Source: a virus. From it: a stretch of DNA of 40,605 bases. The number at the start of each line of letters is the position of its first letter. Position 1 is the first letter of the stretch. This document shows, one piece after another, positions 1,422 through 40,605 of the stretch. The stretch is from positions 1-40,605 of the IMG/VR virus record IMGVR_UViG_3300037264_002081; one strand, given 5' to 3'. Made by a program: the position numbers and the translations under genes. The notes under the pieces are model-generated. The model was not told where the DNA came from, made no database searches, and saw only the letters and a list, made by a program, of their open reading frames with translations.

Positions 1422-3455
1422 ATGGCCTTTCCAACCGTGATCGCAGAGGCGGGCGGCAATAGCGTTGTCAATGAGACAAGCCCTACCGTCAATTTACCTA
1501 ACGGCAGTGATGTTGCAGGGCGTCTGATTCTGTTGTTTTTCACATCGGATGGTTCGGGTGAGACATTCACCACTCCCGCCACCCATCCGTGGACAAAAAT
1601 CTTGACTGAGGGCGGGGTGGGTTTTACCAGCGCAATATATTTCCGCCGCACGACTGGCACGGAAGGCTACCCATCCACCGGCGCAACGATCACAGTGACG
1701 ATATCGTCCATTGAGATGAGCGCACATACAACGTACTTACTAAGTGGTCATCATACAAGCACCGACCCAGTGGCATCCACCGGCGCGACGGGTACAAGCG
1801 TAAGCGGCGACCCCGATGCACTTAATCCCGCTGACTGGGATGTGGAGGATACGTTGTGGTTCGCCGGTGTGGCTTTCAACGGCGCGAGTTCGACAACGCC
1901 ACGAATTACAGGCTATCCGACCAGTTATACCAACACACGTTCAGACTTTGCCGCTGATTCAAACGGCGTCACAATGGGAGTCGCCCGCCGCGAAAATGCA
2001 ACCGCATCTGAAGACCCGTCTGCGTTTACAAGTGATACCTCGGTGGGATGGCGGGCAGAGACGGTGGGGGTGCGACCAAGTTCGAGTGACATAATTACTT
2101 TGGATTTAGTACCATATTCTAGCACTATACCTGCTATTATAGTAACTGAGAATGAAATTATTCCTTTGGATTTAGTTCCCTTTTCTAGCACTATACCTGC
2201 TATTATAGTAACTGAGAATGAAATTATTCCTTTGGATTTAGTTCCCTTTTCTAGCACTATACCTGCTATTATAGTAACTGAGAATGAAATTATTCCTTTG
2301 GATTTAGTTCCCTTTTCTAGCACTATACCTTCTATTATAGTAACAGAACAGATTCCAATTCCTTTGGATTTAGTAACATATTCTAGTACTATACCTACTG
2401 TAACATTTATTGAAAATATAAATATTCCTTTGGATTTAGTACCATACTCTAGTACTATACCTGCTGTAACAGTAACAGAACAAATTGTAATTCCTTTGGA
2501 TTTGGTGACATATTCTAGCACTTTACCCGCTATAACAGTAACCGAGAATGAGATTATTAATTTAGATTTAGTAACATTTTCTAGCACTATAACTGCTATA
2601 ACGTTTCTCGAAAGTGCTGTAACCGCATTAGATTTAGTAACATATTCTAGCACTATACCTTCTATTACAGTAACCGAGAATGAGATTATCCCGTTAAATC
2701 TAGTCTCATATTCTAGCACAGTAAACGTCATCATAGTAACTGAAAATGAGATTATTTCTCTAAATCTAGTTCCTTATTCAAGCACCATACATCCTATAAC
2801 GTTACTTGAATCATTCCCCATTCCTCTGGATTTAGTAACATATTCTAGTACTATACCTGCTATTACAATAACAGAACAGATTGTAATTACTTTAGATTTA
2901 GTTCCATTTTTTAGTACTATACCTGCTATAACAGTAACAGAACAGATTTCAATTACTTTGGATTTAGTTCCGTTTTCAAGTATTATAAATCCTATAACGA
3001 CTACTGAAACTATAACTATTCCTTTAGATCCGGCATCTTTTTCAAGTACTATATATCCTATAATAATTACAGAAGCTAGTGTTATTAATTTAGATTTAGT
3101 AACCTTTACCAGCACAATACGGAATATAGATATTTTAGAAGAATCAACTATTGGTTTGGATTTGGTTACGTATGATTCTCAAATTAGAGATATTTCAGTT
3201 TTAGAAAATGTGGTTATTAATTTAGATTTAGTAACCTTTACAAATACATATGGAGATTTAACAACAACGGCAGATGATTTAACGTTGTTAAATTTGGTAG
3301 TTTTTAATTATTCCGTTCCAAATTTATTATTTCTTGGCGGATATGAATCGTTGATAACTCCGATAGAAAGATGTTATATGATTGAGGACGAACCCCGATA
3401 TATAGATATTGAGTCGGAAGATAGAACAATACTAATTTATTATAAGGAGATTTAA
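1422..3455 (+). CDS. chimeric virion protein: beta-rich head domain plus eighteen 22-residue repeats
   Basis: The 677-residue product has three parts. Residues 1-223 are Gly/Thr/Ser-rich and resemble beta-sandwich domains of phage and environmental surface proteins; this DNA (to about 2090) is clearly GC-richer than its surroundings. Residues 225-620 are eighteen consecutive 22-residue repeats (consensus around LDLVPFSSTIPAIIVTE) in AT-rich DNA. A degenerate 19th unit leads into a 45-residue tail ending near CYMIEDEPRYIDIE. The hydrophobic alternation suggests two short beta strands per unit, hence a solenoid or fibre. I do not recognise the whole protein. Its place in the head module and very strong ribosome-binding site suggest an abundant decoration or fibre protein. 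No signal peptide is visible. A Ca-binding or enzymatic motif is not apparent. Confidence 0.6.
   Translation: MAFPTVIAEAGGNSVVNETSPTVNLPNGSDVAGRLILLFFTSDGSGETFTTPATHPWTKILTEGGVGFTSAIYFRRTTGTEGYPSTGATITVTISSIEMSAHTTYLLSGHHTSTDPVASTGATGTSVSGDPDALNPADWDVEDTLWFAGVAFNGASSTTPRITGYPTSYTNTRSDFAADSNGVTMGVARRENATASEDPSAFTSDTSVGWRAETVGVRPSSSDIITLDLVPYSSTIPAIIVTENEIIPLDLVPFSSTIPAIIVTENEIIPLDLVPFSSTIPAIIVTENEIIPLDLVPFSSTIPSIIVTEQIPIPLDLVTYSSTIPTVTFIENINIPLDLVPYSSTIPAVTVTEQIVIPLDLVTYSSTLPAITVTENEIINLDLVTFSSTITAITFLESAVTALDLVTYSSTIPSITVTENEIIPLNLVSYSSTVNVIIVTENEIISLNLVPYSSTIHPITLLESFPIPLDLVTYSSTIPAITITEQIVITLDLVPFFSTIPAITVTEQISITLDLVPFSSIINPITTTETITIPLDPASFSSTIYPIIITEASVINLDLVTFTSTIRNIDILEESTIGLDLVTYDSQIRDISVLENVVINLDLVTFTNTYGDLTTTADDLTLLNLVVFNYSVPNLLFLGGYESLITPIERCYMIEDEPRYIDIESEDRTILIYYKEI
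2094..3281 (+). repeat. 18 tandem 66-bp coding repeats
   Basis: Eighteen in-frame units of exactly 66 bp start at 2094. Units 2 (2160-2225) and 3 (2226-2291) are identical at the DNA level, and unit 4 shares their first 36 bases. Later units diverge steadily while keeping the 22-codon period without an indel. The best conserved residues are LDLV, the SST triplet and the TE near the unit end. The pattern indicates recent duplication at the 5' end of the array and older copies at the 3' end. Confidence 0.95.
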
Positions 3456-24694: not shown

Positions 24695-24973
24695 ATGGAA
24701 ACAAAAAAAGATTTATCACTAGCAATGAAATCACTTATGGTTGCTCTGTCTTCTTTGAATACCAAACTTGATCCTGATTCTTCTAATAAGAAAGTTGTCA
24801 ATAGATCACGAACTAAAAAAGGAGCAAAACATATAATGGGGGTACAATTCAAATCTCGTAATACGCTTTCGATAACCCCAGCAAAATATCGTCGTATACA
24901 TATGGGCTCTCAGAAAAAGAAAGATAAAAATGGACCTAAATCTAATAACCAAGTCATATCGCCAACTGGCTAG
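24695..24973 (+). CDS. basic small protein, unknown
   Basis: The 92-residue product is strongly basic: KKVVNRSRTKKGAKHIMG, AKYRRIHMGSQKKKDKNG. It lacks membrane helices and cysteines and looks disordered, as nucleic-acid-binding or ribosome-interacting phage proteins often do. The upstream site GAGGAC is weak. Its last 44 bases overlap the next gene, so translation coupling is possible. No family is recognised. Confidence 0.5.
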   Translation: METKKDLSLAMKSLMVALSSLNTKLDPDSSNKKVVNRSRTKKGAKHIMGVQFKSRNTLSITPAKYRRIHMGSQKKKDKNGPKSNNQVISPTG

Positions 24974-25712
24974 AGTATTATCTAAAAACTCGCCTACAAT
25001 TTTAACTGCGCTTGGTGTTGCTGGTTTGTTCAGCACTGTAATCCTTGCTATTAAAGCCACACCAGATGCTATGGAACTTCTTGAATATGAAAAAGGATTT
25101 AGAGCAAGCGAACCTCAAGATTCCAAATATTTAATACCTATTGATATTTTAGACACTGTGGTTCTTACCTGGAAGTGTTATATTCCAACCATAATTATGG
25201 GATTAACCACAACAACTTGCATTATAGGTGCCAATCATATCAATTTACGTAGAAACGCGGCGTTAGTAAGTCTATTTTCTCTAACTGAAAGCGCCCTCAA
25301 AGAATATCAAGCCAAAGTCGTAGAAACTATTGGTAAGGCCAAAGAAGAAAAAATTAAAGAGGAGATCATCCAAGATAGGTTAAACAATGATCCGGTTAAA
25401 GATGGAGCTGTTATATTGACCGGGAAAGGGGATTATCTATGCTATGATTCCTTTTCATCTAGATACTTTAGATCTAATGTAGACTCTATTCAGCGATCGG
25501 AGAATACATTCAATCAGAAACTCCTTAGAGAGGGTTGGATGGATATAAACCAATTCTATGATGAGCTTGGTTTAGATCCCATTGAGCTAGGGAATAACTA
25601 TGGTTGGGTTGGTCAGTACAATCTATTAGAACTCAGATTTACCGTAAAACTAGCAAAAAATGACGAACCATGTCTTGTTTTAGAGTATAGAATTCAACCA
25701 ACTATGGTTTAG
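24930..25712 (+). CDS. DUF6353-like membrane protein (short paralogue)
   Basis: The 260-residue product has two hydrophobic helices (about 24-42, TILTALGVAGLFSTVILAI, and 85-102, IPTIIMGLTTTTCIIGAN), then HINLRRNAALVSLFSLTESALKEYQAKVVE and a C-terminal soluble domain. This layout, KxSPxIL-GVxG near the start and INxRRxAALxSxxxLxE after helix 2, is shared with the gene at 29697. I associate it with the phage family DUF6353, whose function is unknown. No strong ribosome site precedes the ATG. Promoter copy 5 begins right at its stop. Confidence 0.7.
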   Translation: MDLNLITKSYRQLARVLSKNSPTILTALGVAGLFSTVILAIKATPDAMELLEYEKGFRASEPQDSKYLIPIDILDTVVLTWKCYIPTIIMGLTTTTCIIGANHINLRRNAALVSLFSLTESALKEYQAKVVETIGKAKEEKIKEEIIQDRLNNDPVKDGAVILTGKGDYLCYDSFSSRYFRSNVDSIQRSENTFNQKLLREGWMDINQFYDELGLDPIELGNNYGWVGQYNLLELRFTVKLAKNDEPCLVLEYRIQPTMV

Positions 25713-29696: not shown

Positions 29697-30644
29697 ATGA
29701 ATTTTCAAACAATTAAAACCACAGTCTTGCGATCGTATGGACGTGGTGGTCTTATTCTTAAGAAATATAGCCCCGAGATCTTATTGGGTGTCGGATTGAT
29801 CGGAGGGGTGGTTGCTGCAGTGTTGGCGGCAAAGGCTACGTTAAAAACCAATGATATAATAGATGAACATATTGAGAAAATGAATTGGGTGAAATCACAA
29901 GAAGCTGCCTTTGAAGAGGATTCTATAGATATTACAAAAGAGGAACTCATTAAAGAGAGAGTTACAGTTTACACCCAAACAGGTCTTCAATTTGCCAAGT
30001 TGTATGGACCTTCTATTGGTATTGGCGTGTTGTCAATCACGGCAATACTTGGTGCTCATGGTATTATGGCTAAGCGTCAAGTTGCTTTGATTAGTGCATA
30101 TGGTATTCTTAGCGAGGGTTTCAAAAGTTATCGTGAGCGTGTAATTGAGAAGTTGGGTGCCGACACGGATAAAATGTATAGTCTTGGATTGCGAGAAGGG
30201 GAGCAGATAGTTATTGAAGAAGATGAGAATGGTAAGAAAACTAAGACTAAGAAAAAGGGATTAGTTTATGATTATAGTTTTAAAAGTATTTATTCTCGAT
30301 TCTTTGATGAAAGCAATCCTCAATTTAGTACCGATAGACTTATGAATAAAGCATTTTTGACGGCCAGACAGAATTATATGAACGATGTTTTAACTATTCG
30401 TGGTCATGTGTTTCTCAATGAAGTTTATGAATCGTTAGGTTTCCAGCACACAAAAGAAGGCGCAATTGTTGGGTGGGTCTTAAGATCTAATGATCAAATG
30501 AAAGCAGAAGGTCGGGATGGTTTTATTGATTTCGGTATTAGCGATTACGTTAACGACGATACACGAGAAGTTATACGGTTAACAAAACCGAATGCTTTTC
30601 TTCTTGATTTTAATGTTGACGGCATTGTTTACGATCTTATTTGA
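29697..30644 (+). CDS. DUF6353-like membrane protein (long paralogue)
   Basis: The 315-residue product has helix 1 (about 29-47, ILLGVGLIGGVVAAVLAAK), a charged segment (45 residues), helix 2 (about 100-120, YGPSIGIGVLSITAILGAHG), then IMAKRQVALISAYGILSEGFKSYRERV and a C-terminal domain ending FLLDFNVDGIVYDLI. It matches the DUF6353 layout and is a longer relative of the 24930 product. AAGGAGA precedes the ATG. The same frame stays open for 29 codons after its TGA (see 30645). Confidence 0.75.
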   Translation: MNFQTIKTTVLRSYGRGGLILKKYSPEILLGVGLIGGVVAAVLAAKATLKTNDIIDEHIEKMNWVKSQEAAFEEDSIDITKEELIKERVTVYTQTGLQFAKLYGPSIGIGVLSITAILGAHGIMAKRQVALISAYGILSEGFKSYRERVIEKLGADTDKMYSLGLREGEQIVIEEDENGKKTKTKKKGLVYDYSFKSIYSRFFDESNPQFSTDRLMNKAFLTARQNYMNDVLTIRGHVFLNEVYESLGFQHTKEGAIVGWVLRSNDQMKAEGRDGFIDFGISDYVNDDTREVIRLTKPNAFLLDFNVDGIVYDLI

Positions 30645-30749: not shown

Positions 30750-31466
30750 ATGAATAAAAATATAGCTTTACTAATCGGTGCCACAATTGGTGCCGGTGTT
30801 GGTTATTTAATTGCTGATTGGTATATCGAATTTCAAATGCCAACAGAGGAAGATGAGGAGGATTTTGAATTGAATGAGTTTGATGTAAGTGATCGTGGTG
30901 ATAAATTCCAACCTAAGCCTAGGGTTAAAAAAGAAAAGCATAGAAAACCCAACCCGTCCTTAAACTATACCGAGTATTTCCAATCCCAAAATCGGCCAGA
31001 GCTTGCGGTATTGGCGGCTAAATATAATGGACAATCGGATGCAACTCCAATCGGTCAAGTAACAAATATTGAAGAGATTTATGATGATTCTGGAAAAATT
31101 GATGAGGTTGAGTTTATAGTTAACATCGACTCAGATAAAGATCCAGTCATTATCTCAATTGCAGAATATGCTAACGACGGAGAATACGATCATCAGACTT
31201 TGCATTATTTTGATGATGACGTAGTTACAGATGAGGATGATCTACCAATCAATCGCCCAGAGAAATTCCTAGGAGATGAGGCATTAGTGTCGTTTGGTGT
31301 TCTATCAGAAGACGAGGACATAATCTATGTACGCAATAATGCCAAAAAGGCTATGTATGAGATCCTTCGACTAAATAAAAACTATGCCGCACCTCGGATC
31401 GAAAAAGTTACTAAGCGACGTCTTAAGGAGGAAGTGGTAAATGATAAGGAAACAGGAAACACTTAG
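30750..31466 (+). CDS. membrane-anchored acidic phage protein, unknown
   Basis: The 238-residue product has an N-terminal Gly-rich helix (about 5-24, IALLIGATIGAGVGYLIADW), then a very acidic stretch (EEDEEDFELNEFD), a basic patch, and a conserved domain with NRPELAVLAAKYNG, VIISIAEYANDGEYDHQTLHYF and a C-terminal LRLNKNYAAPRIEKVTKRRLKEE. I have seen this arrangement in other Gram-positive phages without assigned function. AAAGGAG precedes the ATG. It overlaps the next gene by 26 bases. Confidence 0.65.
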   Translation: MNKNIALLIGATIGAGVGYLIADWYIEFQMPTEEDEEDFELNEFDVSDRGDKFQPKPRVKKEKHRKPNPSLNYTEYFQSQNRPELAVLAAKYNGQSDATPIGQVTNIEEIYDDSGKIDEVEFIVNIDSDKDPVIISIAEYANDGEYDHQTLHYFDDDVVTDEDDLPINRPEKFLGDEALVSFGVLSEDEDIIYVRNNAKKAMYEILRLNKNYAAPRIEKVTKRRLKEEVVNDKETGNT

Positions 31467-32019
31467 AGACGAGTATTTCTCATGGCTTTACGAAATAGTA
31501 AATGAAAAAAAGAGAAGCTATAAAAAACTTTGTCATATTTTTCATGAAAAAAAATTTAGATGGTTTGTACAAAATGACGACAATCGGTATATGGATGGGG
31601 TTGCTCTTAGACAGATCTTTGTTGATGTCCAGAAGTTAGATGAAGAGCATACCGAAGTGTCATATTTTCTTAAAGGGGGAGAATGTACTATCTTCGAAAT
31701 GCTAGTGTCTCTAGCTCAACGTATAGACGAGTTGACTTACAATTTAGAAGATCAACAAAATCGCACACCAAAGTGGTTTCTGGAAATGGTCCAAAATCTC
31801 GGATTAGACTGTTACACAGATGTGACACTTATTGACCCGAAAAGAAATGTGTCACAAAATGAGGCTATTGATAGTGTTTTGGAAACATTATTAGACCGTA
31901 CGTACGACGCTTTCGGAACAGGCAGCTTATTTCCCCTTAAACGGCGACCCCAGAAGCACATGGCTAAAGTAGAGATTTGGTACCAGCTTATGATCTATTT
32001 GGACGAAAACTATGGCTAG
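31441..32019 (+). CDS. conserved phage protein, unknown function
   Basis: The 192-residue product has RDEYFSWLYEIVNEKKRSYK, NDDNRYMDGVALRQIFVD, CTIFEMLVSLAQRIDEL, TPKWFLEMVQNLGLD and a final MAKVEIWYQLMIYLDENYG. This is a frequent phage family I recognise by pattern but cannot name functionally. The DNA carries two GTGACAC/GTGTCAC motifs (31822, 31849) that belong to the repeat set of the following origin-like region. TTAAGGAGG precedes the ATG. Its position next to the replication gene suggests a link to replication control. Confidence 0.65.
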   Translation: MIRKQETLRDEYFSWLYEIVNEKKRSYKKLCHIFHEKKFRWFVQNDDNRYMDGVALRQIFVDVQKLDEEHTEVSYFLKGGECTIFEMLVSLAQRIDELTYNLEDQQNRTPKWFLEMVQNLGLDCYTDVTLIDPKRNVSQNEAIDSVLETLLDRTYDAFGTGSLFPLKRRPQKHMAKVEIWYQLMIYLDENYG

Positions 32020-32218
32020 TGACACTTTGTTGCGCTTTTGTGACACTTTTGAAATGCCATATTTTGGGAAAACAAGAGGGGGAATTGCACTTTTGTGACA
32101 CTTTTACACTTTTTTATCTCTATTAATATATAATATATATAATATATATAGGGAATCCCGTGGTTCCGCACAGGGCCGAGTAGTCAAAAATAAGTGTAAA
32201 AAGTGTAAAAGTGTCACA
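32019..32218 (+). other. candidate replication origin (iteron-like repeats and AT-rich block)
   Basis: This 220-base gap holds GTGACAC at 32019, 32040 and 32095 and its complement at 32211. Bases 32094-32114 and 32198-32218 are a 21-bp perfect inverted repeat. Between the arms, 32111-32150 is nearly pure A/T (alternating TATA), like a DNA-unwinding element. Extra CACTTTT half-sites lie at 32088 and 32107. The replication gene starts 20 bases later. A role as promoter or operator for that gene is an alternative and could coexist. Confidence 0.6.
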
Positions 32219-32238
32219 TTTTTAAAGAAAGGAGATAA

Positions 32239-35200
32239 ATGGACTTTTTAACCACAAGCCAAAGACCCAAACAAAATGGGGGGATAGATATAGTACCGGA
32301 CTTTAAGGTTACTAGATCTAAAGATTTAATGATCCGTGGTAAAAGTTTTTACGCCATTTGGGATGACGAAAAACAATTATGGTCAACGGATGAGTATGAC
32401 GTTCAACGGCTAGTAGACAAAGTACTTCATGACTATGCCGACAAAGTTAAAGAACAAAAACCAAACGATTCAATCGTTGTTAAATCCATGGGTAATTTCA
32501 CCACAAATAGTTGGTCTAAATTCAGATCGTATATTAATCAGCTATCAGATAACGCTACTCAATTAGATACAAATCTAACCTTTGCTAACACTGAGATAAC
32601 CAAAAAAGATTATGTAAGTAAACGCTTATCATATTCTTTGAATGAAGGATCGATAGAGTCTTGGAATATATTTATGTCTACGGCGTATGATCCAGAGGAA
32701 AGAGAGAAAATTGAGTGGACTATCGGAGCAATCGTCGCAGGAGAAGCAAAATATATTCAAAAACTTCTTGTTATTTATGGCGAACCAGGTAGTGGTAAAT
32801 CAACAGTATTAAACGTTATTCAAAAGATGTTCGAGGGATATTATACAACGTTTGAAGCTAAGGCTTTAGGATCAAATAACAACTCGTTCTCTACAGAAGC
32901 ATTTAAAGGAAATCCATTATTAGCTATTGAGCACGATGGTGATCTATCAAGACTAGAAGACAATACAAAATTGAACTCATTAGTTTCTCACGAAGAGATG
33001 GCTAGAAATGAGAAGAATAAACCGGTATATACTGCAAGGTCTAATGCTTTTGTTATTATTGGTACTAATAAGCCAGTTAAGATTACTGATGGTAAATCAG
33101 GACTTCTTCGAAGAATGATTGATGTTAGAACTTCAGGAAGAATTTTACCAATTCATCAGTACCAAACGGTGATATCGAGAATGAATTTTGAGCTAGGTGC
33201 TATTGCCTATCACTGTTTGACATTATTCAGAAAATTAGGAAAAGATCGTTATTTAAATTATAAACCGACTAGAATGCAAATAGAAACAGACATATTCTTC
33301 AATTTTGTCGAAGAGAATTTTTATGTATTCAAACAACAAGATGGTACAACTCTATCCCAAGCCTGGGTTATGTATAAAATGTTCTGCGATGAAACATCGA
33401 TCGAATATCGATTGCCCCGTCATAAATTTCGATCTGAGTTGAAAAATTATTTTAAAGATTTTAAAGATGTGGGCCGTAGTACTGAAGGAAAACAGATAAG
33501 AAGTGTGTTTTCTGGTTTTGAGGCTGACAAATTTAGTACCAATGCTTTTTCCGAAGAAGACGAAATACCAATATCATTAACGTTGGATTTTGACGAATCA
33601 ATATTGGATACTGTTGGAAAAGATTATATCGCACAATTAGCATCCCCTATTGATCTTTTCCCAATTAAGAAATGGGCAGATGTAAAAACAACCCTTTCGG
33701 ACATAGATACTAAAAAACTTCATTATGTGGTCCTTCCGAAGAATCATATTTATTTAGATTTCGACATAAAGGACGATACTGGGGAAAAATCGCTACAATT
33801 AAACATAGAAGCCGCTAGTAAATTCCCCCCAACGTATGCTGAATACAGTAAAAGTGGTAAAGGTATACATCTTCATTATTTTTATGATGGCGATGTGGAA
33901 AAATTATCAAGTATATATTCTGAAGGCATAGAAATTAAAAGAACTAGCTATGGCGAAAAAGGCCCCTCGACTCTAAGGCGGAAACTATCTAAATGTAATA
34001 ACCTACCAATAACCAATATAAATGGTGGTCTTCCCTTGAAAGGAGAAAAAGTGATAGATGCAAAAACGGTGGCTAGTGAGAAGGGTCTTAGGGACTTAAT
34101 CATTAGAAATTTAAAGAAAGAAATACACCCAGGAACAAAGTCGTCTGTAGACTTTATTTATAAAATATTAGAGGATTCTTACAAGTCTGGACTTAAGTAT
34201 GATGTAACTTCTCTAAGACCTAATGTTTTGCATTTTGCTAATAATAGCACAAATCAAGCAGAGTATTGTGTTGGTCTTGTTAGTAAAATGAAATTCAAAT
34301 CAGATCACGATGATGTTTTTGAGATAGTTCCGGATGATAGACCAAACGTGTTCTATGATGTTGAAGTATTTTCCAACTTATTTGTAGTATGCTGGAAAGT
34401 AGAAGGAGATGATCAAAAAATAGTTAGAATGATAAACCCAACGTCAAAAGATATTGAATCGTTGTTGACAATGAAGCTCATAGGTTTCAATAATAGACGA
34501 TATGACAATCATATTCTATATGGCAGATATATTGGTTACAACAATCTAGAACTATATGATCTAAGTCGTAAAATAGTTGAGGGTAGTTCTAATTCATATT
34601 TTAGAGAAGCATACAATATCTCTTATACTGACATCTATGATTTTTCGTCAGCTGGCAACAAAAAGAGTCTAAAGAAATGGGAGATAGAACTAGGTATTCC
34701 TCATAAAGAACTTGGTCTCCCTTGGGATCAACCAGTACCAGAAGACAAGTGGTTGACTGTAGCCGAATATTGTGATAATGATGTGGATGCCACAGAAGTG
34801 GTGTTTAATCATTTATCTGGAGATTGGGAAGCCCGTAAAGTTCTATCAGAACTTAGCGGTTTGTCAGTAAACGATACCACTAATCAACATACAATTCGAA
34901 TCGTATTTGGAGATAACAAAACACCTCAAGGTTCCTTTGTTTATACTGATTTATCAGAAATGTTTCCAGGCTATACTTTTGACGCTGGAAAAAGTACATA
35001 TCGTGGTGAAGATCCAAAAGAAGGTGGATATGTATACGCAGAACCAGGTATGTATGAAAATGTGGCTTTGTTGGATGTGGCGTCAATGCATCCAAGTAGC
35101 ATTGTTAATTTAAATTTACTTGGTAAATTTACCAAAACATATTCGGAATTAAAACAAGGTCGAATTGCTATTAAACATAAGGATATGAAAGCACTAAATT

Positions 35201-36051
35201 CCCTATTAGATGGTAAGTTAGAGTCTTTAGTTAACAGAGCAGAAGGTCGATCATTTAGTCTTAAAGGTCTATCTGAGGGTTTAAAGACTGCGCTTAATTC
35301 TGCGTATGGACTCACTTCTGCTTCTTTTGATAATCCATTTAGGGATATTCGAAATGTGGATAATATCGTTGCAAAACGTGGAGCGTTATTCATGATTGAT
35401 TTAAAACACGCAGTTCAGGAGAAGGGCTTTACGGTTGCTCATATTAAAACGGATTCAATCAAGATTCCAAACGCAACAGAGGAAATTATATCTTTCATTA
35501 ATGATTTTGGTAGAAAATATGGCTATTCCTTTGAGTATGAAGGAACCTATTCGAAATTCTGCTTAGTTAATGATGCCGTATACATTGCAAAAGATAAAGA
35601 AGGCACATGGACAGCAACCGGTGCCGAGTTTGCTCATCCTTTTGTCTTTAAGACACTGTTCTCAAAAGAACAAATAGAATTTTCTGATTTGTGCGAAACA
35701 AAAGCAGTTACAGGAGAGTCGGCTTTATATTTGGATATGAATGAGGGTTTATCAGAAGGAGAACACAACTATCAATTTGTAGGAAGAATCGGTTCGTTCT
35801 GTCCAGTAGAAGATGGGACCGGTGGAGGAACTTTGGTTCGACTAAAAGATAGTAAGTATTATGCTGCTACCGGAACAAAAGGATATCGATGGTTGGAAGC
35901 AGATATGGTTAAAACTCTTGGTATATCCGACCAAATAAACACGACATATCATGAGAAACTAGTTTCAGATGCTATCGAACATATTTCTAAATTTGGAGAT
36001 TTCGATACTTTTGTTTCTGAACAGAAAACCAAGGAGAGTAAAAAGAAATAA
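32239..36051 (+). CDS. fused SF3 helicase - AEP primase - exonuclease - family B DNA polymerase
   Basis: This 1270-residue protein holds four replication activities. Helicase (about 100-440): Walker A GEPGSGKS (181-188), Walker B-like AIEHDGD (229-235), sensor GTNKP (275-279), and GLLRRMID with R291/R292. Primase (about 460-600): IYLDFDIKD (D507, D509), SKSGKGIHLHY (H544), IEIK (564-567). 3'-5' exonuclease (about 700-860): FYDVEVF (D707, E709), FNNRRYDNH (D756), YCDNDVD (D848). Polymerase (about 930-1230): motif A LLDVASMHPSSI (D946), motif B KTALNSAYG (K1016-G1024), motif C HIKTDSIKI (D1072), where the first Asp of the usual DTDS is Lys. The usual primase-helicase order is reversed. AAAGGAG precedes the ATG. 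An internal GTG at codon 605 may yield the polymerase separately. Confidence 0.85.
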   Translation: MDFLTTSQRPKQNGGIDIVPDFKVTRSKDLMIRGKSFYAIWDDEKQLWSTDEYDVQRLVDKVLHDYADKVKEQKPNDSIVVKSMGNFTTNSWSKFRSYINQLSDNATQLDTNLTFANTEITKKDYVSKRLSYSLNEGSIESWNIFMSTAYDPEEREKIEWTIGAIVAGEAKYIQKLLVIYGEPGSGKSTVLNVIQKMFEGYYTTFEAKALGSNNNSFSTEAFKGNPLLAIEHDGDLSRLEDNTKLNSLVSHEEMARNEKNKPVYTARSNAFVIIGTNKPVKITDGKSGLLRRMIDVRTSGRILPIHQYQTVISRMNFELGAIAYHCLTLFRKLGKDRYLNYKPTRMQIETDIFFNFVEENFYVFKQQDGTTLSQAWVMYKMFCDETSIEYRLPRHKFRSELKNYFKDFKDVGRSTEGKQIRSVFSGFEADKFSTNAFSEEDEIPISLTLDFDESILDTVGKDYIAQLASPIDLFPIKKWADVKTTLSDIDTKKLHYVVLPKNHIYLDFDIKDDTGEKSLQLNIEAASKFPPTYAEYSKSGKGIHLHYFYDGDVEKLSSIYSEGIEIKRTSYGEKGPSTLRRKLSKCNNLPITNINGGLPLKGEKVIDAKTVASEKGLRDLIIRNLKKEIHPGTKSSVDFIYKILEDSYKSGLKYDVTSLRPNVLHFANNSTNQAEYCVGLVSKMKFKSDHDDVFEIVPDDRPNVFYDVEVFSNLFVVCWKVEGDDQKIVRMINPTSKDIESLLTMKLIGFNNRRYDNHILYGRYIGYNNLELYDLSRKIVEGSSNSYFREAYNISYTDIYDFSSAGNKKSLKKWEIELGIPHKELGLPWDQPVPEDKWLTVAEYCDNDVDATEVVFNHLSGDWEARKVLSELSGLSVNDTTNQHTIRIVFGDNKTPQGSFVYTDLSEMFPGYTFDAGKSTYRGEDPKEGGYVYAEPGMYENVALLDVASMHPSSIVNLNLLGKFTKTYSELKQGRIAIKHKDMKALNSLLDGKLESLVNRAEGRSFSLKGLSEGLKTALNSAYGLTSASFDNPFRDIRNVDNIVAKRGALFMIDLKHAVQEKGFTVAHIKTDSIKIPNATEEIISFINDFGRKYGYSFEYEGTYSKFCLVNDAVYIAKDKEGTWTATGAEFAHPFVFKTLFSKEQIEFSDLCETKAVTGESALYLDMNEGLSEGEHNYQFVGRIGSFCPVEDGTGGGTLVRLKDSKYYAATGTKGYRWLEADMVKTLGISDQINTTYHEKLVSDAIEHISKFGDFDTFVSEQKTKESKKK
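34034..34053 (+). promoter_or_regulatory. internal ribosome-binding site and GTG at the primase/polymerase junction
   Basis: CCTTGAAAGGAGAA (34034-34047) is the same leader that precedes many accessory genes here. GTG 34051 follows five bases after GGAG, in frame (codon 605), and falls exactly between the primase and exonuclease-polymerase domains. The predicted short product is 666 residues. Confidence 0.65.
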
Positions 36052-36960
36052 ATGTTAAAATATAAAACAACCCAAGTAGGAGCCATCACCACAATGCGTT
36101 CCGATAATGGTTTTAATCTTTTTATTACATCAGATATTCATTTCGATAGTGTATACTGTAATAGAGATAGGTTTTTTAAAGACCTTGAGATCGGGATAGA
36201 TAGGGGGTGTAATATTATAATTGTTGGTGATCTATTCGACGCAATGAATGGTCGATTCGACCCTCGTCGGGACATGAGCCATCTTCGTCCAGAATATAGA
36301 AGGGATGACTATTATGATTTCATCGTTGATGATGCGGTAGAGAAATTGAAACCATATGCCAAACATATTCTAATGATAACAGAAGGCAATCATGAAGGAT
36401 CTGTTTTAAAAAATGCCAACACTGATCTTATTGGTAGACTAACCAAAAAACTTAATATTTTAAGAGGTGGGTATGGTGGTATTATTTTAGCAAAAGATAA
36501 AAAGCACACAACACCAATAAAATATTTTCATGGATCTGGAGGAGAAGCACCAGTTACAAAAGGAGCAATTCAAACCAATCGTCAGGCGGTGTTTCTTCCA
36601 GATTTTCAAATAGTCTTAAATGGACACAGCCACAACGCTTATTGGATACCATTAGTTAGAGAACGAGTATCGTTTGAGGGAGAACATTATTATGATATTC
36701 AACATCATATTAGAACTCCGGGATATCTAATGAGTTATGGGGATGGAACGAATGGTTGGGAAGTAACTCGTGGCGGAGTACCAAAACCAGTTGGTTCTTT
36801 TGTCTTGAAAATAAAAGATGGAGAAATATTTCCATATCCAATAATTCACGCACCAAAAGCAATTAGCCCGGTTATAGATCAATATTCCGGCATTGTATTT
36901 CCACAAGATTCAGAAGAAGGAGTAAAACATGGCCACAAAAAAGAAAAATCAAGAAAGTGA
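36052..36960 (+). CDS. calcineurin-like metallophosphoesterase
   Basis: The 302-residue enzyme has all main metal motifs: FITSDIHF (D28, H30), IIVGDLFD (D60), TEGNHEG (N113, H114) and LNGHSHN (H192, H194). These bind two metals for phosphoester hydrolysis. Members include Mre11/SbcD nucleases, cyclic-nucleotide phosphodiesterases and phosphatases. There is no SbcC partner in view. It begins directly after the polymerase stop and overlaps the ssDNA-binding-like gene, so a DNA-processing role is likely. The site AAGGAG is about 17 bases from the ATG, so coupling may matter; a start at a later ATG is possible. Confidence 0.88.
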   Translation: MLKYKTTQVGAITTMRSDNGFNLFITSDIHFDSVYCNRDRFFKDLEIGIDRGCNIIIVGDLFDAMNGRFDPRRDMSHLRPEYRRDDYYDFIVDDAVEKLKPYAKHILMITEGNHEGSVLKNANTDLIGRLTKKLNILRGGYGGIILAKDKKHTTPIKYFHGSGGEAPVTKGAIQTNRQAVFLPDFQIVLNGHSHNAYWIPLVRERVSFEGEHYYDIQHHIRTPGYLMSYGDGTNGWEVTRGGVPKPVGSFVLKIKDGEIFPYPIIHAPKAISPVIDQYSGIVFPQDSEEGVKHGHKKEKSRK

Positions 36961-37438
36961 AAAACCAAAAGTTCAACCATTAACAATCCAAAACGCAAAG
37001 TTGATGTATAGAAATTTTAGTGGGGCTGCTAAAAAGTTTAATGCCAAAGGACTTAGAAATTTCCACATTTTATTGGAACCGGATATTGCGAAAACTCTTG
37101 AGAAAGATGGTTGGAATATCAAATGGGATGATCCAAAAGAAGAGGATGATCCACCGGTAGCACACATTAAAGTTGCCGTTCGTTTTGATAACTATCCTCC
37201 AAGAATCCTTTTAATAACATCAAAAAATAGATCTGTTCTATCCGAGTCAACGGTTGATATTCTTGACTGGGCTGAAATTGAAACAGCAGATGTAGTTCTT
37301 ACTGGATCTCCTTGGGATGTTCAAGGTAAGCAGGGTATCAAAGCTTATTTGAAAAAAGGTTTCTTTACTTTGTCTGATGATGATTTAGAAACAAAATATG
37401 CTATGCCCAACAATGGGCCTAGTGAAGAAGATGCTTAA
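36929..37438 (+). CDS. probable single-stranded DNA-binding protein
   Basis: The 169-residue product opens with a basic tail (MATKKKNQESEKPK). The core has NFSGAAKKFNAKGLRNFHIL, VAHIKVAVRFDNYPPRILLI and VVLTGSPWDVQGKQGIKAYL. The GSPWDVQGKQGIKAYLKKGF end resembles an OB-fold strand set found in phage replication modules. It ends acidic (SEEDA), as many SSB proteins do. AAGGAG precedes the ATG. Context between phosphoesterase and helicase supports the call; I did not see a canonical SSB signature, so it remains probable. Confidence 0.6.
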   Translation: MATKKKNQESEKPKVQPLTIQNAKLMYRNFSGAAKKFNAKGLRNFHILLEPDIAKTLEKDGWNIKWDDPKEEDDPPVAHIKVAVRFDNYPPRILLITSKNRSVLSESTVDILDWAEIETADVVLTGSPWDVQGKQGIKAYLKKGFFTLSDDDLETKYAMPNNGPSEEDA

Positions 37439-38570
37439 GCTATTTGATTATCAAATAAAAGCTATTTCAGAACTCAAGACTGGCTCCATCCTAAGGGGTG
37501 GAGTCGGTTCTGGTAAAACTTTGACTTCGCTTGGGTATTATAAACAAAAAGAAACATCAAAAGAATTATATGTAATAACCACAGCAAAAAAGAGAGATGA
37601 ATTAGATTGGGAACATGAGTCTAAACTTTTAGATATCCCCAACATACATGTAGATTCTTGGAATAATATAGGGAAATATAAGGATGTTAAGAATGCGTTT
37701 TTCATATTTGATGAACAGAAGACATCTGGATATGGTTCTTGGGTTAAGTCATTTATCAAAGTCTCCAAGTCAAATAACTGGATTTTACTTTCGGCAACTC
37801 CTGGTGATAAATGGATCGATTATTTACCTGTATTTATTGCTAATGGGTTTTATAAAAATAAGTCTGATTTCGTCACCAAACATGTGGTGTATAACACATA
37901 TACCAACTATCCGAAAATAGATAGATATGTAGAAACTGGGAAGTTAGAGAAATTAAGAAGAGCCATTACTGTTAAAATGGACTATAAGAAAAAAACAATA
38001 GACCATATAATATTGTTAGATATGCCCTACGATTCCTCCAAATTTGAAATAGTATTTAAAGATAAGTGGAATCCGTTCAAAGATGCACCAATTAAAAGCG
38101 CATCAGAAGCATGTTACACAATGAGAAAAATTGTAAACAGTAATCAATCCAGATTGAATGCTATTAAAATACTTATGAAAACACATCATAAGATAATGGT
38201 TTTTTATAATTTTAACTATGAGTTAGATTTATTGAGAACGTTAAAAGACGACTTAAATGTTTCGGTGGCTGAATATAATGGACAAAAACACGAGAGTATA
38301 CCAGTAGCGGACAGATGGTTATATCTAGCTCAATACACTTCTGCTGGAGAGTCCTGGAATTGTATAGAAACCAACACTATTGTTTTGTATTCTAGGAATT
38401 ATTCTTATCGTCAAACGATACAGGCAATGGGTAGAATAGACCGTCAAAATACTACCTTTGTAAATCTATATTACTATTTTTTAACCTCCAACTCACCGAT
38501 TGATAACGCTATATTAAAGACCTATTCGGAGAAAAAAAACTTCAACGAAGTCAATTTTATCAAAAAATAG
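37431..38570 (+). CDS. SF2/SNF2-type DNA helicase-like ATPase
   Basis: The 379-residue protein has Walker A GGVGSGKT (23-30), a DEAD-box variant FDEQ (93-96), motif III LLSATPG (119-125) and a final QAMGRIDRQ (about 338-346, motif VI). These place it in helicase superfamily 2, closest to SNF2-like enzymes of phages, here in a compact form. It probably remodels or unwinds branched DNA in replication or recombination. ATG 37431 overlaps the previous stop (ATGCTTAA); a start at 37398 would extend 11 codons into that gene and lacks a site. Promoter copy 6 begins 2 bases after the stop. Confidence 0.85.
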   Translation: MLKLFDYQIKAISELKTGSILRGGVGSGKTLTSLGYYKQKETSKELYVITTAKKRDELDWEHESKLLDIPNIHVDSWNNIGKYKDVKNAFFIFDEQKTSGYGSWVKSFIKVSKSNNWILLSATPGDKWIDYLPVFIANGFYKNKSDFVTKHVVYNTYTNYPKIDRYVETGKLEKLRRAITVKMDYKKKTIDHIILLDMPYDSSKFEIVFKDKWNPFKDAPIKSASEACYTMRKIVNSNQSRLNAIKILMKTHHKIMVFYNFNYELDLLRTLKDDLNVSVAEYNGQKHESIPVADRWLYLAQYTSAGESWNCIETNTIVLYSRNYSYRQTIQAMGRIDRQNTTFVNLYYYFLTSNSPIDNAILKTYSEKKNFNEVNFIKK

Positions 38571-38690: not shown

Positions 38691-38990
38691 ATGATTTTAG
38701 AAAGTCGGTTTAAAGCCGATTTGATCGAGGAAATAGAAGCACTATATCCTGGTGCTATTGTACTTAAAACGGATGCGAATCAAATCCAAGGTTTTCCAGA
38801 TAATTTAATTTTGTGCGATAACAAATGGGCTGCATTTGAGGCCAAAAGAGATATATCAGCATCTATTAGACCTAATCAAAAGCATTACGTTCAAATGTTA
38901 AACAGCATGTCATACGCGTCCTTCGTGTTTCCACAAAACAAGGAGAAATTTTTAAATGAACTTCAACAAACATTCCAATCTACAAGGTGA
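38691..38990 (+). CDS. VRR-NUC-type nuclease (PD-(D/E)XK)
   Basis: The 99-residue enzyme shows IVLKTDANQIQGFPDNLILC (P36, D37) followed by WAAFEAKR (E50, K52), the PD-(D/E)XK core, and PNQKHYVQML with the Q-x-x-Y of VRR-NUC proteins. Compact VRR-NUC proteins of this size act as structure-specific (Holliday junction or flap) nucleases in phages. TAAAGGAG precedes the ATG. It overlaps the next nuclease gene by 35 bases. A resolvase role fits the neighbouring replication genes. Confidence 0.8.
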   Translation: MILESRFKADLIEEIEALYPGAIVLKTDANQIQGFPDNLILCDNKWAAFEAKRDISASIRPNQKHYVQMLNSMSYASFVFPQNKEKFLNELQQTFQSTR

Positions 38991-39516
38991 GCACTCATTT
39001 CTTAGCCCATCAAAATATCATTGGATTAATTACGATGAGGATAAAATTGGGTCTGCTTATCTGAAATTTTTAGCTGCTCAAAAGGGAACTCAACTTCACG
39101 ACTTTGCCTGTCAGTGTATAAGGTTAGGAATTAAACTACCAAAGAATAAACAAACTTTAAATAGTTATGTTAATGATGCGCTTGGGTTTAGAATGATCCC
39201 TGAACAACCTCTTTTCTACTCGGAAAATGCGTTTGGAACCGCAGATGCCATATCTTTTAGAGATAAGATACTTAGAATCCATGATTTGAAAACTGGAGTG
39301 TCTCCAGTATCAATGAGTCAGTTGGAAATATATGTTGCTTTTTTTTGTTTAGAATATGAAATGAATCCGAAAAAAATAGACATAGAGCTAAGATTGTACC
39401 AAAGTGATGAAATAGTTGTTCATAAACCAGAGTGGGAAAGTATACAGGACATAATGAAAAAAGTCGTTTCTTTTGATGAGAGGATTAATTTAATTAAAAC
39501 AGACTTGGAGGATTAA
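38956..39516 (+). CDS. RecB/Cas4-like PD-(D/E)XK nuclease
   Basis: The 186-residue product has GTQLHDF (H48), FGTADAIS (D97), RIHDLKTG (D110, K112) and SQLEIYVAFF (Q122, Y126). The order H-D-DxK-QxxxY is the RecB-family nuclease signature. There are no four cysteines for the iron-sulfur cluster of true Cas4 or AddB. Phages use such exonucleases for recombination or host DNA processing. AAGGAG precedes the ATG, and translation overlaps the VRR-NUC gene. Confidence 0.85.
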   Translation: MNFNKHSNLQGEHSFLSPSKYHWINYDEDKIGSAYLKFLAAQKGTQLHDFACQCIRLGIKLPKNKQTLNSYVNDALGFRMIPEQPLFYSENAFGTADAISFRDKILRIHDLKTGVSPVSMSQLEIYVAFFCLEYEMNPKKIDIELRLYQSDEIVVHKPEWESIQDIMKKVVSFDERINLIKTDLED

Positions 39517-39520
39517 AACT

Positions 39521-40605
39521 ATGTCTTATTTCTATCACATTGGTGTTAAACGTAAATCAGGCAGATATCCTTGGGGATCTGGTAACAACTCAGAACAAAG
39601 AGGAACTAGTTTTTTAGGTTACATATCAAAACTTCAAAAAGAAGGATTATCAGAAATTGAAATCGCAGAAGGTTTGAGCATGACTACCACACAATTAAGA
39701 ACGAGGAAGTCAATAGCTAAAGCTGAACTTAGAGCTGCGGCAACAATTACTGCGCTTAAGTATAAAGACAAAGGCATGTCAAATGTTGCTATAGGCATCA
39801 GGATGGGTCTTAATGAATCTTCTGTTAGAGCGTTACTTGATCCTTCTTTACAAATTAGATCTGATATCGCGCTATCAACATCCAAGATGTTACGAGAAAC
39901 AATTGAAAAAAAAGGTGTTATTGACGTTGGGGCTGGTGTTGAAAGTCAAATAGGTATAAGCAGGACAAAATTAAATACTGCTATATCCCTACTTGAAGAA
40001 GAAGGTTATAAAATTCATTATGTCCAAACACCACAGCTTGGCACCGGAAAATTTACAACCATTAAAGCTTTAGCTCCTCCGGGTATGGAATATAAGGATG
40101 TTTATAAAAATAGATCTGAGATAAAACCAGTATCTAATTTTATATATAGCCCAGATGGTGGAAGAACTCAATATGGTTTAGTTACGCCTAAAAATGTTGA
40201 CTCAAAAAGAATAATGGTAAGATACAAAGAAGATGGTGGTAGCGATAAAGATGGGGTTATCGAACTTAGGCGTAACGTAGAAGATCTTTCTTTAGGTAAA
40301 ACCAAATATGCCCAAGTTAGAATTGCTGTTGATGGAACACATTATTTAAAAGGCATGGCTATATATGCTGATAATATGCCTGCAGGTGTGGATATAATAT
40401 ATAACAGTAATAAAGATAAAACAACACCAAAACAAAACGTTTTTAAAGAATTAAAAGACGACGTTGATAATCCATTTGGTACTCTAATAAAACCGCAAGG
40501 ACAAAAAGGAGCTTTAAATATTGTAAATGAAGAAGGAGATTGGGGAAAATGGTCTAAGAATTTGTCATCACAAATATTGTCAAAACAATCTCCAGCTTTA
40601 GCAAA
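39521..40605 (+). CDS. large phage protein with helix-turn-helix-like segments (truncated by window end)
   Basis: The frame opens at ATG 39521 after GGAGG and is open to the last base (361 codons). It starts MSYFYHIGVKRKSGRYPWGS, then GLSEIEIAEGLSMTTTQLRT (about 45-65) and KGMSNVAIGIRMGLNESSVR (about 85-104), two helix-turn-helix-like units. DVGAGVESQIGISRTKLNTA suggests a third DNA-binding unit. Later parts read YAQVRIAVDGTHYLKGMA and NIVNEEGDWGKWSKNLSSQI. I recall relatives in gut phages that are much longer and carry an ADFDGD motif like that of RNA polymerase active sites; that portion would lie outside this window. Role is therefore unresolved. Confidence 0.65.
   Translation, partial: MSYFYHIGVKRKSGRYPWGSGNNSEQRGTSFLGYISKLQKEGLSEIEIAEGLSMTTTQLRTRKSIAKAELRAAATITALKYKDKGMSNVAIGIRMGLNESSVRALLDPSLQIRSDIALSTSKMLRETIEKKGVIDVGAGVESQIGISRTKLNTAISLLEEEGYKIHYVQTPQLGTGKFTTIKALAPPGMEYKDVYKNRSEIKPVSNFIYSPDGGRTQYGLVTPKNVDSKRIMVRYKEDGGSDKDGVIELRRNVEDLSLGKTKYAQVRIAVDGTHYLKGMAIYADNMPAGVDIIYNSNKDKTTPKQNVFKELKDDVDNPFGTLIKPQGQKGALNIVNEEGDWGKWSKNLSSQILSKQSPALA

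Follow-up and report, generated by a model that had tools for sequence, protein, structure and literature searches.

A single gene of the viral record IMGVR_UViG_3300037264_002081 (IMG/VR), which was analysed over its whole length of 40,605 nt and is called the window below, very probably encodes a HelPrimPolB-family replicase whose mode of action resembles that of GP55 from lactococcal phage 1706. The order of its parts, SF3 helicase, AEP, four-helix linker, 3′–5′ exonuclease and PolB in one protein, was confirmed. Inverted iterons with an AT-rich core, located directly upstream, form a candidate iteron-type replication origin. The kind of enzyme is already known; the conserved iteron element beside the replicase seems to be new. 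Positions of the features are given in Table 1.

The HelPrimPolB proteins were delineated by Kazlauskas et al. (2020; PMC7544198) as a group of PolBs with a fused SF3 helicase and PrimPol; the same paper credits the first description of the fusion to the authors' 2016 survey. GP55 was purified by Zhang et al. (2025; PMC12205980). Their report describes UTP/dTTP-dependent unwinding, RNA priming, 3′–5′ exonuclease and polymerase activities, as well as de novo synthesis on M13 DNA; activity was abolished by mutating K189, D509, D712/E714 and D949. The view in the preliminary description of this DNA that a one-gene replisome of this order was not known as a characterised system is contradicted by these two works, and the window enzyme is an additional member of a known, characterised family.

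Table 1. Features of the replicase locus, in window positions (residue numbers refer to the replicase)
Feature	Position	Strand	Basis
phrog_4678 gene, function unassigned	31441..32019	+	present in 159/177 relatives showing any cassette gene
Intergenic candidate origin, 219 nt	32020..32238	.	TGTGACACTTTT-type iterons flanking AT-rich core
Left 21-nt arm, TGTGACACTTTTACACTTTTT	32094..32114	+	inverted repeat
AT-rich core with ATATATAAT repeats	32115..32150	.	between arms
Right 21-nt arm	32198..32218	-	perfect inverted copy of left arm
HelPrimPolB replicase gene	32239..36051	+	1270 aa, intact ORF, PHROG 4210, relatives
N-terminal domain and SF3/D5-type helicase, residues 1–435	32239..33543	+	Pfam, AF2/Foldseek, conservation
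AEP (PriS-like) primase domain, residues 450–600	33586..34038	+	PHROG primase profiles, invariant D507/D509/H544/E565
Four-helix domain, residues 614–683	34078..34287	+	AF2 model; counterpart of GP55 aHD
3′–5′ exonuclease, residues 700–900	34336..34938	+	conservation in 170 sequences, PolB fold match
PolB palm/fingers/thumb, residues 905–1262	34951..36024	+	AF2, VIA, invariance
Phage ssDNA-binding/single-strand annealing protein	36929..37438	+	PF24083, phrog_4787
SF2 helicase	37398..38570	+	Pfam/PHROG matches, cassette conservation
Endonuclease	38691..38990	+	phrog_93
Exonuclease	38956..39516	+	phrog_3953

Profiles, predicted folds and conserved residues bore out the earlier view of four replication modules with the helicase first and the polymerase last. 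The domain limits moved slightly and now stand at approximately 1–435, 450–600, 614–683, 700–900 and 905–1262. Structure prediction, proposed at that stage as a check, gave an SF3 fold within residues 1–455 and a PolB fold in the C-terminal part. The model of residues 1–455 (AF2, pLDDT 90.9) had its best Foldseek matches to AsfvPrimPol, SaPI5 Rep (7ola, TM 0.60), the C-terminal region of NrS-1 and poxvirus E5/D5. Pfam DUF5906 matched the region of residues 1–435 (E=1.4e-12), where the Walker A motif (G181..K187), D233, sensor N277 and R291/R292 are located.

The model of residues 430–1262 (AF2, pLDDT 90.2) matched family B polymerases in its exonuclease and polymerase part, with a VIA Z of 17.0 over 443 residues to KOD PolB. 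The exonuclease motifs are Exo I (D707/E709), Exo II (N751/D756) and Exo III (Y844/D848); the polymerase motifs are A (D946), B (K1016..Y1023 G1024) and C (KTDS, 1070–1073). VIA-align of residues 430–1262 is silent on the AEP fold, since almost all of its matches were to the PolB region. Between AEP and PolB, where a PriL/HBD might stand, the AF2 model and the alignment with GP55 place a helical domain of four helices (model positions 185–196, 204–221, 228–239 and 245–254, to which 429 is added for residue numbers).

The AEP domain is remote in sequence. The primase profile phrog_3022 matched the segment in 38 of 39 family members (best E 3.9e-9). Pfam Prim-Pol (PF09250) matched it in 27 of the 39, with a best E of 0.001, and fell below the cut-off for the window protein; a profile search of solved structures returned SaPI5 Rep as the best match, with an E of 0.25 and an alignment covering both catalytic motifs. 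Because the Pfam match is sub-threshold and the best structural match has this E-value, the assignment as a probable AEP rests on the profiles, the invariant catalytic residues and the homology to GP55.

Residues 116–435 matched the C-terminal part (444–761 of 772) of phrog_1829, labelled ‘DNA primase’, and the AEP segment matched its N-terminal part (49–123). The helicase-first order is thus a permutation of the usual primase–helicase order, and the contrast that the preliminary description drew between the two layouts holds.

Conservation was measured over 170 aligned sequences. Invariant residues were found in the four catalytic modules: G181, K187, N277, R291 and R292 in the helicase (with D233 in 166 of 170); D507, D509, H544 and E565 in the AEP; D707, E709, D756, Y844 and D848 in the exonuclease, whose motifs Exo I–III are invariant or nearly so; and D946, K1016, Y1023, G1024 and the entire KTDS in PolB. 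The replicase and GP55 aligned end to end (38% identity, 849 bits, 1322 columns). In this alignment K189, D509, D712/E714 and D949 of GP55 are matched by the same amino acids in the window protein (K187, D509, D707/E709 and D946), and the counterparts of all mutated catalytic residues of GP55 are the same throughout the 170 sequences.

Loss of one or more activities in the fusion, e.g. through decay of the primase or a weakening effect of KTDS on the polymerase, is very improbable. Motif C does differ from the usual DTDS in missing the first aspartate, and the AEP domain is divergent; however, KTDS is invariant in the 170 sequences, further active PolBs lacking this aspartate are known (PMC7544198), and GP55, also with KTDS, is active both as a polymerase and as a primase (PMC12205980). 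KTDS in motif C is therefore no sign of inactivity, given that GP55 shares it.

From GP55 we infer the activities of the four catalytic centres observed in the window. The helicase module would unwind the phage DNA, and the AEP, together with the neighbouring four-helix domain, would prime the exposed strand with RNA. Extension of this primer and proofreading would then be the work of the C-terminal PolB, which would displace the strand ahead with assistance from the helicase.

The replicase gene was confirmed to be real and intact, coding for one uninterrupted polypeptide. Its 1270 codons are free of stops and contain every motif quoted in the preliminary description, which had reported the single frame. 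PHROG 4210 matched residues 1–1268 with 1855 bits. By tblastn 365 phage records were matched at identities below 60%; in 252 of them the coverage was at least 80%. Profile scans gave at least 578 confirmed stretches in IMG/VR and 129 in bacterial genome contigs. Among 181 relatives read as DNA, cultured phages included, the frame was uninterrupted in 169, cut at contig ends in 10 and interrupted in two. The full-length PHROG match, the phage and IMG/VR relatives and the 169 intact frames lead us to regard the single frame as real and conserved. A chance or artefactual frame is ruled out by the same data; nothing was found in favour of a fusion of separate genes by assembly or annotation, and its probability is negligible, with the same single frame recurring in cultured phages. 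Members of the family are common both in viral contigs and among cultured phages of several genera of Actinobacteria, and are not confined to human-associated phages.

In one of the two interrupted relatives (L178:10709-11851) an insertion of ∼1.1 kb breaks the replicase frame near residue 907. A search for introns in both (L176 and L178) gave no Rfam match at the gathering threshold. Split genes in relatives were considered as a clue to modular origin and set aside, as there were these two cases alone. A megablast search of the phage collection for a close DNA relative of the 28–40.6 kb region gave no match.

Where the flanks reach, the relatives share a cassette composed of the phrog_4678 gene, the replicase, the ssDNA-binding protein, the SF2 helicase, the endonuclease, the exonuclease and an RNA-polymerase-like gene. 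In the window, a gene for a putative DNA repair exonuclease/metallophosphoesterase (phrog_7339) is located at 36052-36960, directly 3′ of the replicase gene; such a gene is rare, being present at 2 of 177 loci, one of them a close relative (L025). The record ends within a gene of phrog_4291 (39521-40605), a family labelled ‘RNA-dependent RNA polymerase’. A DFDGD motif is present in gp75, the phage 1706 homologue, and presumably points to a two-barrel RNA polymerase and not to an RNA-dependent one.

Two observations were made elsewhere in the window. A 66-nt repeat recurs about 13 times at 2087-2938, within an ORF (1422-3455, 677 aa) for which no good family match was found. The genes at 24930-25712 and 29697-30644 both match phrog_2152 (unassigned function), the second also Pfam DUF6353, and apparently are paralogues.

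The gap directly upstream of the replicase gene contains two 21-nt arms, perfectly inverted to each other, that flank an AT-rich core, along with extra copies of TGTGACACTTTT. Taken as single-stranded DNA, the gap has a folding z of −5.2. No switch in GC skew was seen here; the plus strand carries nearly all genes.

Repeats were frequent at this place in relatives. By repeat score, the 350-nt stretch ahead of the replicase ranked among the highest 5% within its locus at 49 of 161 loci, versus 5 of 158 for a downstream control stretch. Of 130 non-redundant upstream regions, 25 had inverted arms 12 nt or longer, versus 0.3% in dinucleotide shuffles. Clusters of TG-N1-4-CACTTTT were detected at 33 of 132 non-redundant loci and at no more than three for any of 104 permuted cores; this comparison gauges the strength of the signal and gives no unbiased p-value, because the choice of motif followed inspection of these loci. 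The element is thus found in about a quarter of relatives, with a diverged unit and a conserved CACTTTT core. In most family members the CACTTTT cluster was not found in the DNA examined, and a universal upstream element is ruled out, as most relatives have no repeats upstream of the replicase.

While 27 of the 33 clusters are located within 1 kb before the replicase, the remaining six lie 7.6–11.6 kb downstream, counted from the start of the gene. In relatives with mappable neighbours the downstream element stands inside the cassette, between the SF2 helicase and endonuclease genes. The anatomy is much alike at both places: an iteron, an AT-rich stretch and an inverted iteron pair, with 3–17 copies. 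Searching IMG/VR with TGTKACACTTTTACACTTTT alone yielded 18 loci, with the replicase in 13 and no cassette gene in five; six of the 13 replicase contigs had been collected previously and seven were new. With TGCCCACTTTTGCCCACTTT alone, six loci were found, all six with cassette genes. These repeat-only searches are partly independent, because some matched loci were already among those collected.

Two properties point to a candidate iteron-type origin: short repeated units flank a putative AT-rich unwinding region, and the element is located in the cassette, beside or near the gene of the putative initiator. This reading follows from the movement of the element within the cassette and from its resemblance to the layout of SaPI Rep and SCC Cch2 (PMC7581432). 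The SF3 module, whose fold is related to that of the initiator SaPI5 Rep, may bind the upstream element of iterons and AT-rich core and melt it. Somewhat less than even confidence attaches to the further reading that the origin is recognised by the replicase itself, in a two-part replicon whose origin has moved within the cassette between relatives while keeping the CACTTTT core. If this is true, the functions of initiator, helicase, primase and polymerase would be covered by a single protein together with one movable DNA element.

It is rather unlikely that the upstream repeats are instead an operator or promoter, bound by a phage regulator or by the replicase in control of replicase transcription. 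The frequent location of the element 20–50 nt ahead of the replicase start and its TATA-like core agree with such a role, as does phage 1706, where a similarly laid-out repeat-rich region precedes gp75 and not the replicase. On the other hand, the layout and its copy range recur at two alternative places in the cassette, and no sigma-70-like site was found in the 32020–32238 gap. The element may also serve both as an origin and as an operator/promoter. The candidate origin provides a specific DNA for asking whether a four-in-one replicase starts replication alone.

In phage 1706 a separate gap (L012:23635-24082), rich in AT and in repeats with CTATCACGAAAAAACTTCGGGA units, is located between the exonuclease gene and gp75; possibly, this gap is the origin of the characterised phage. 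The available part of the GP55 paper reports no replication origin (PMC12205980).

Among known systems, SaPI5 Rep (7ola) and SCC Cch2 share with the window protein the class of helicase fold and have an initiator gene adjoining an iteron region; SaPI5 Rep differs in combining a primase and a helicase without a polymerase, and the SaPI origin is downstream of the gene (PMC7581432). The proteins annotated as ‘DNA primase/polymerase’ (phrog_4210) in phages of Gordonia, Arthrobacter, Streptomyces and Rhodococcus are end-to-end homologues with 47–56% identity; in the loci read, a short gap precedes the replicase and no repeat-rich stretch was found. NrS-1 PrimPol and AsfvPrimPol also carry an AEP and an SF3 helicase with a matching fold in one chain, with the AEP first, the helicase last and no PolB domain. 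The HelPrimPolB group shares the SF3 helicase and PrimPol N-terminal to PolB and the divergent motif C, and no difference in kind from the window protein was found (PMC7544198). In phage 1706 a gap of 40 nt precedes the replicase gene where the window has the iteron gap, and the repeats of this phage, sited before gp75, are unlike the CACTTTT element. Phage 1706 is like the window in that genes for an ssDNA-binding protein and an SF2 helicase accompany the replicase in its cassette. For GP55 itself (NC_010576 gp55), the likenesses are the domain order, the length (1317 versus 1270 aa), the KTDS motif C, the identity of all mutated catalytic residues and the aHD region (PMC12205980), whose position is homologous to that of the four helices of residues 614–683.
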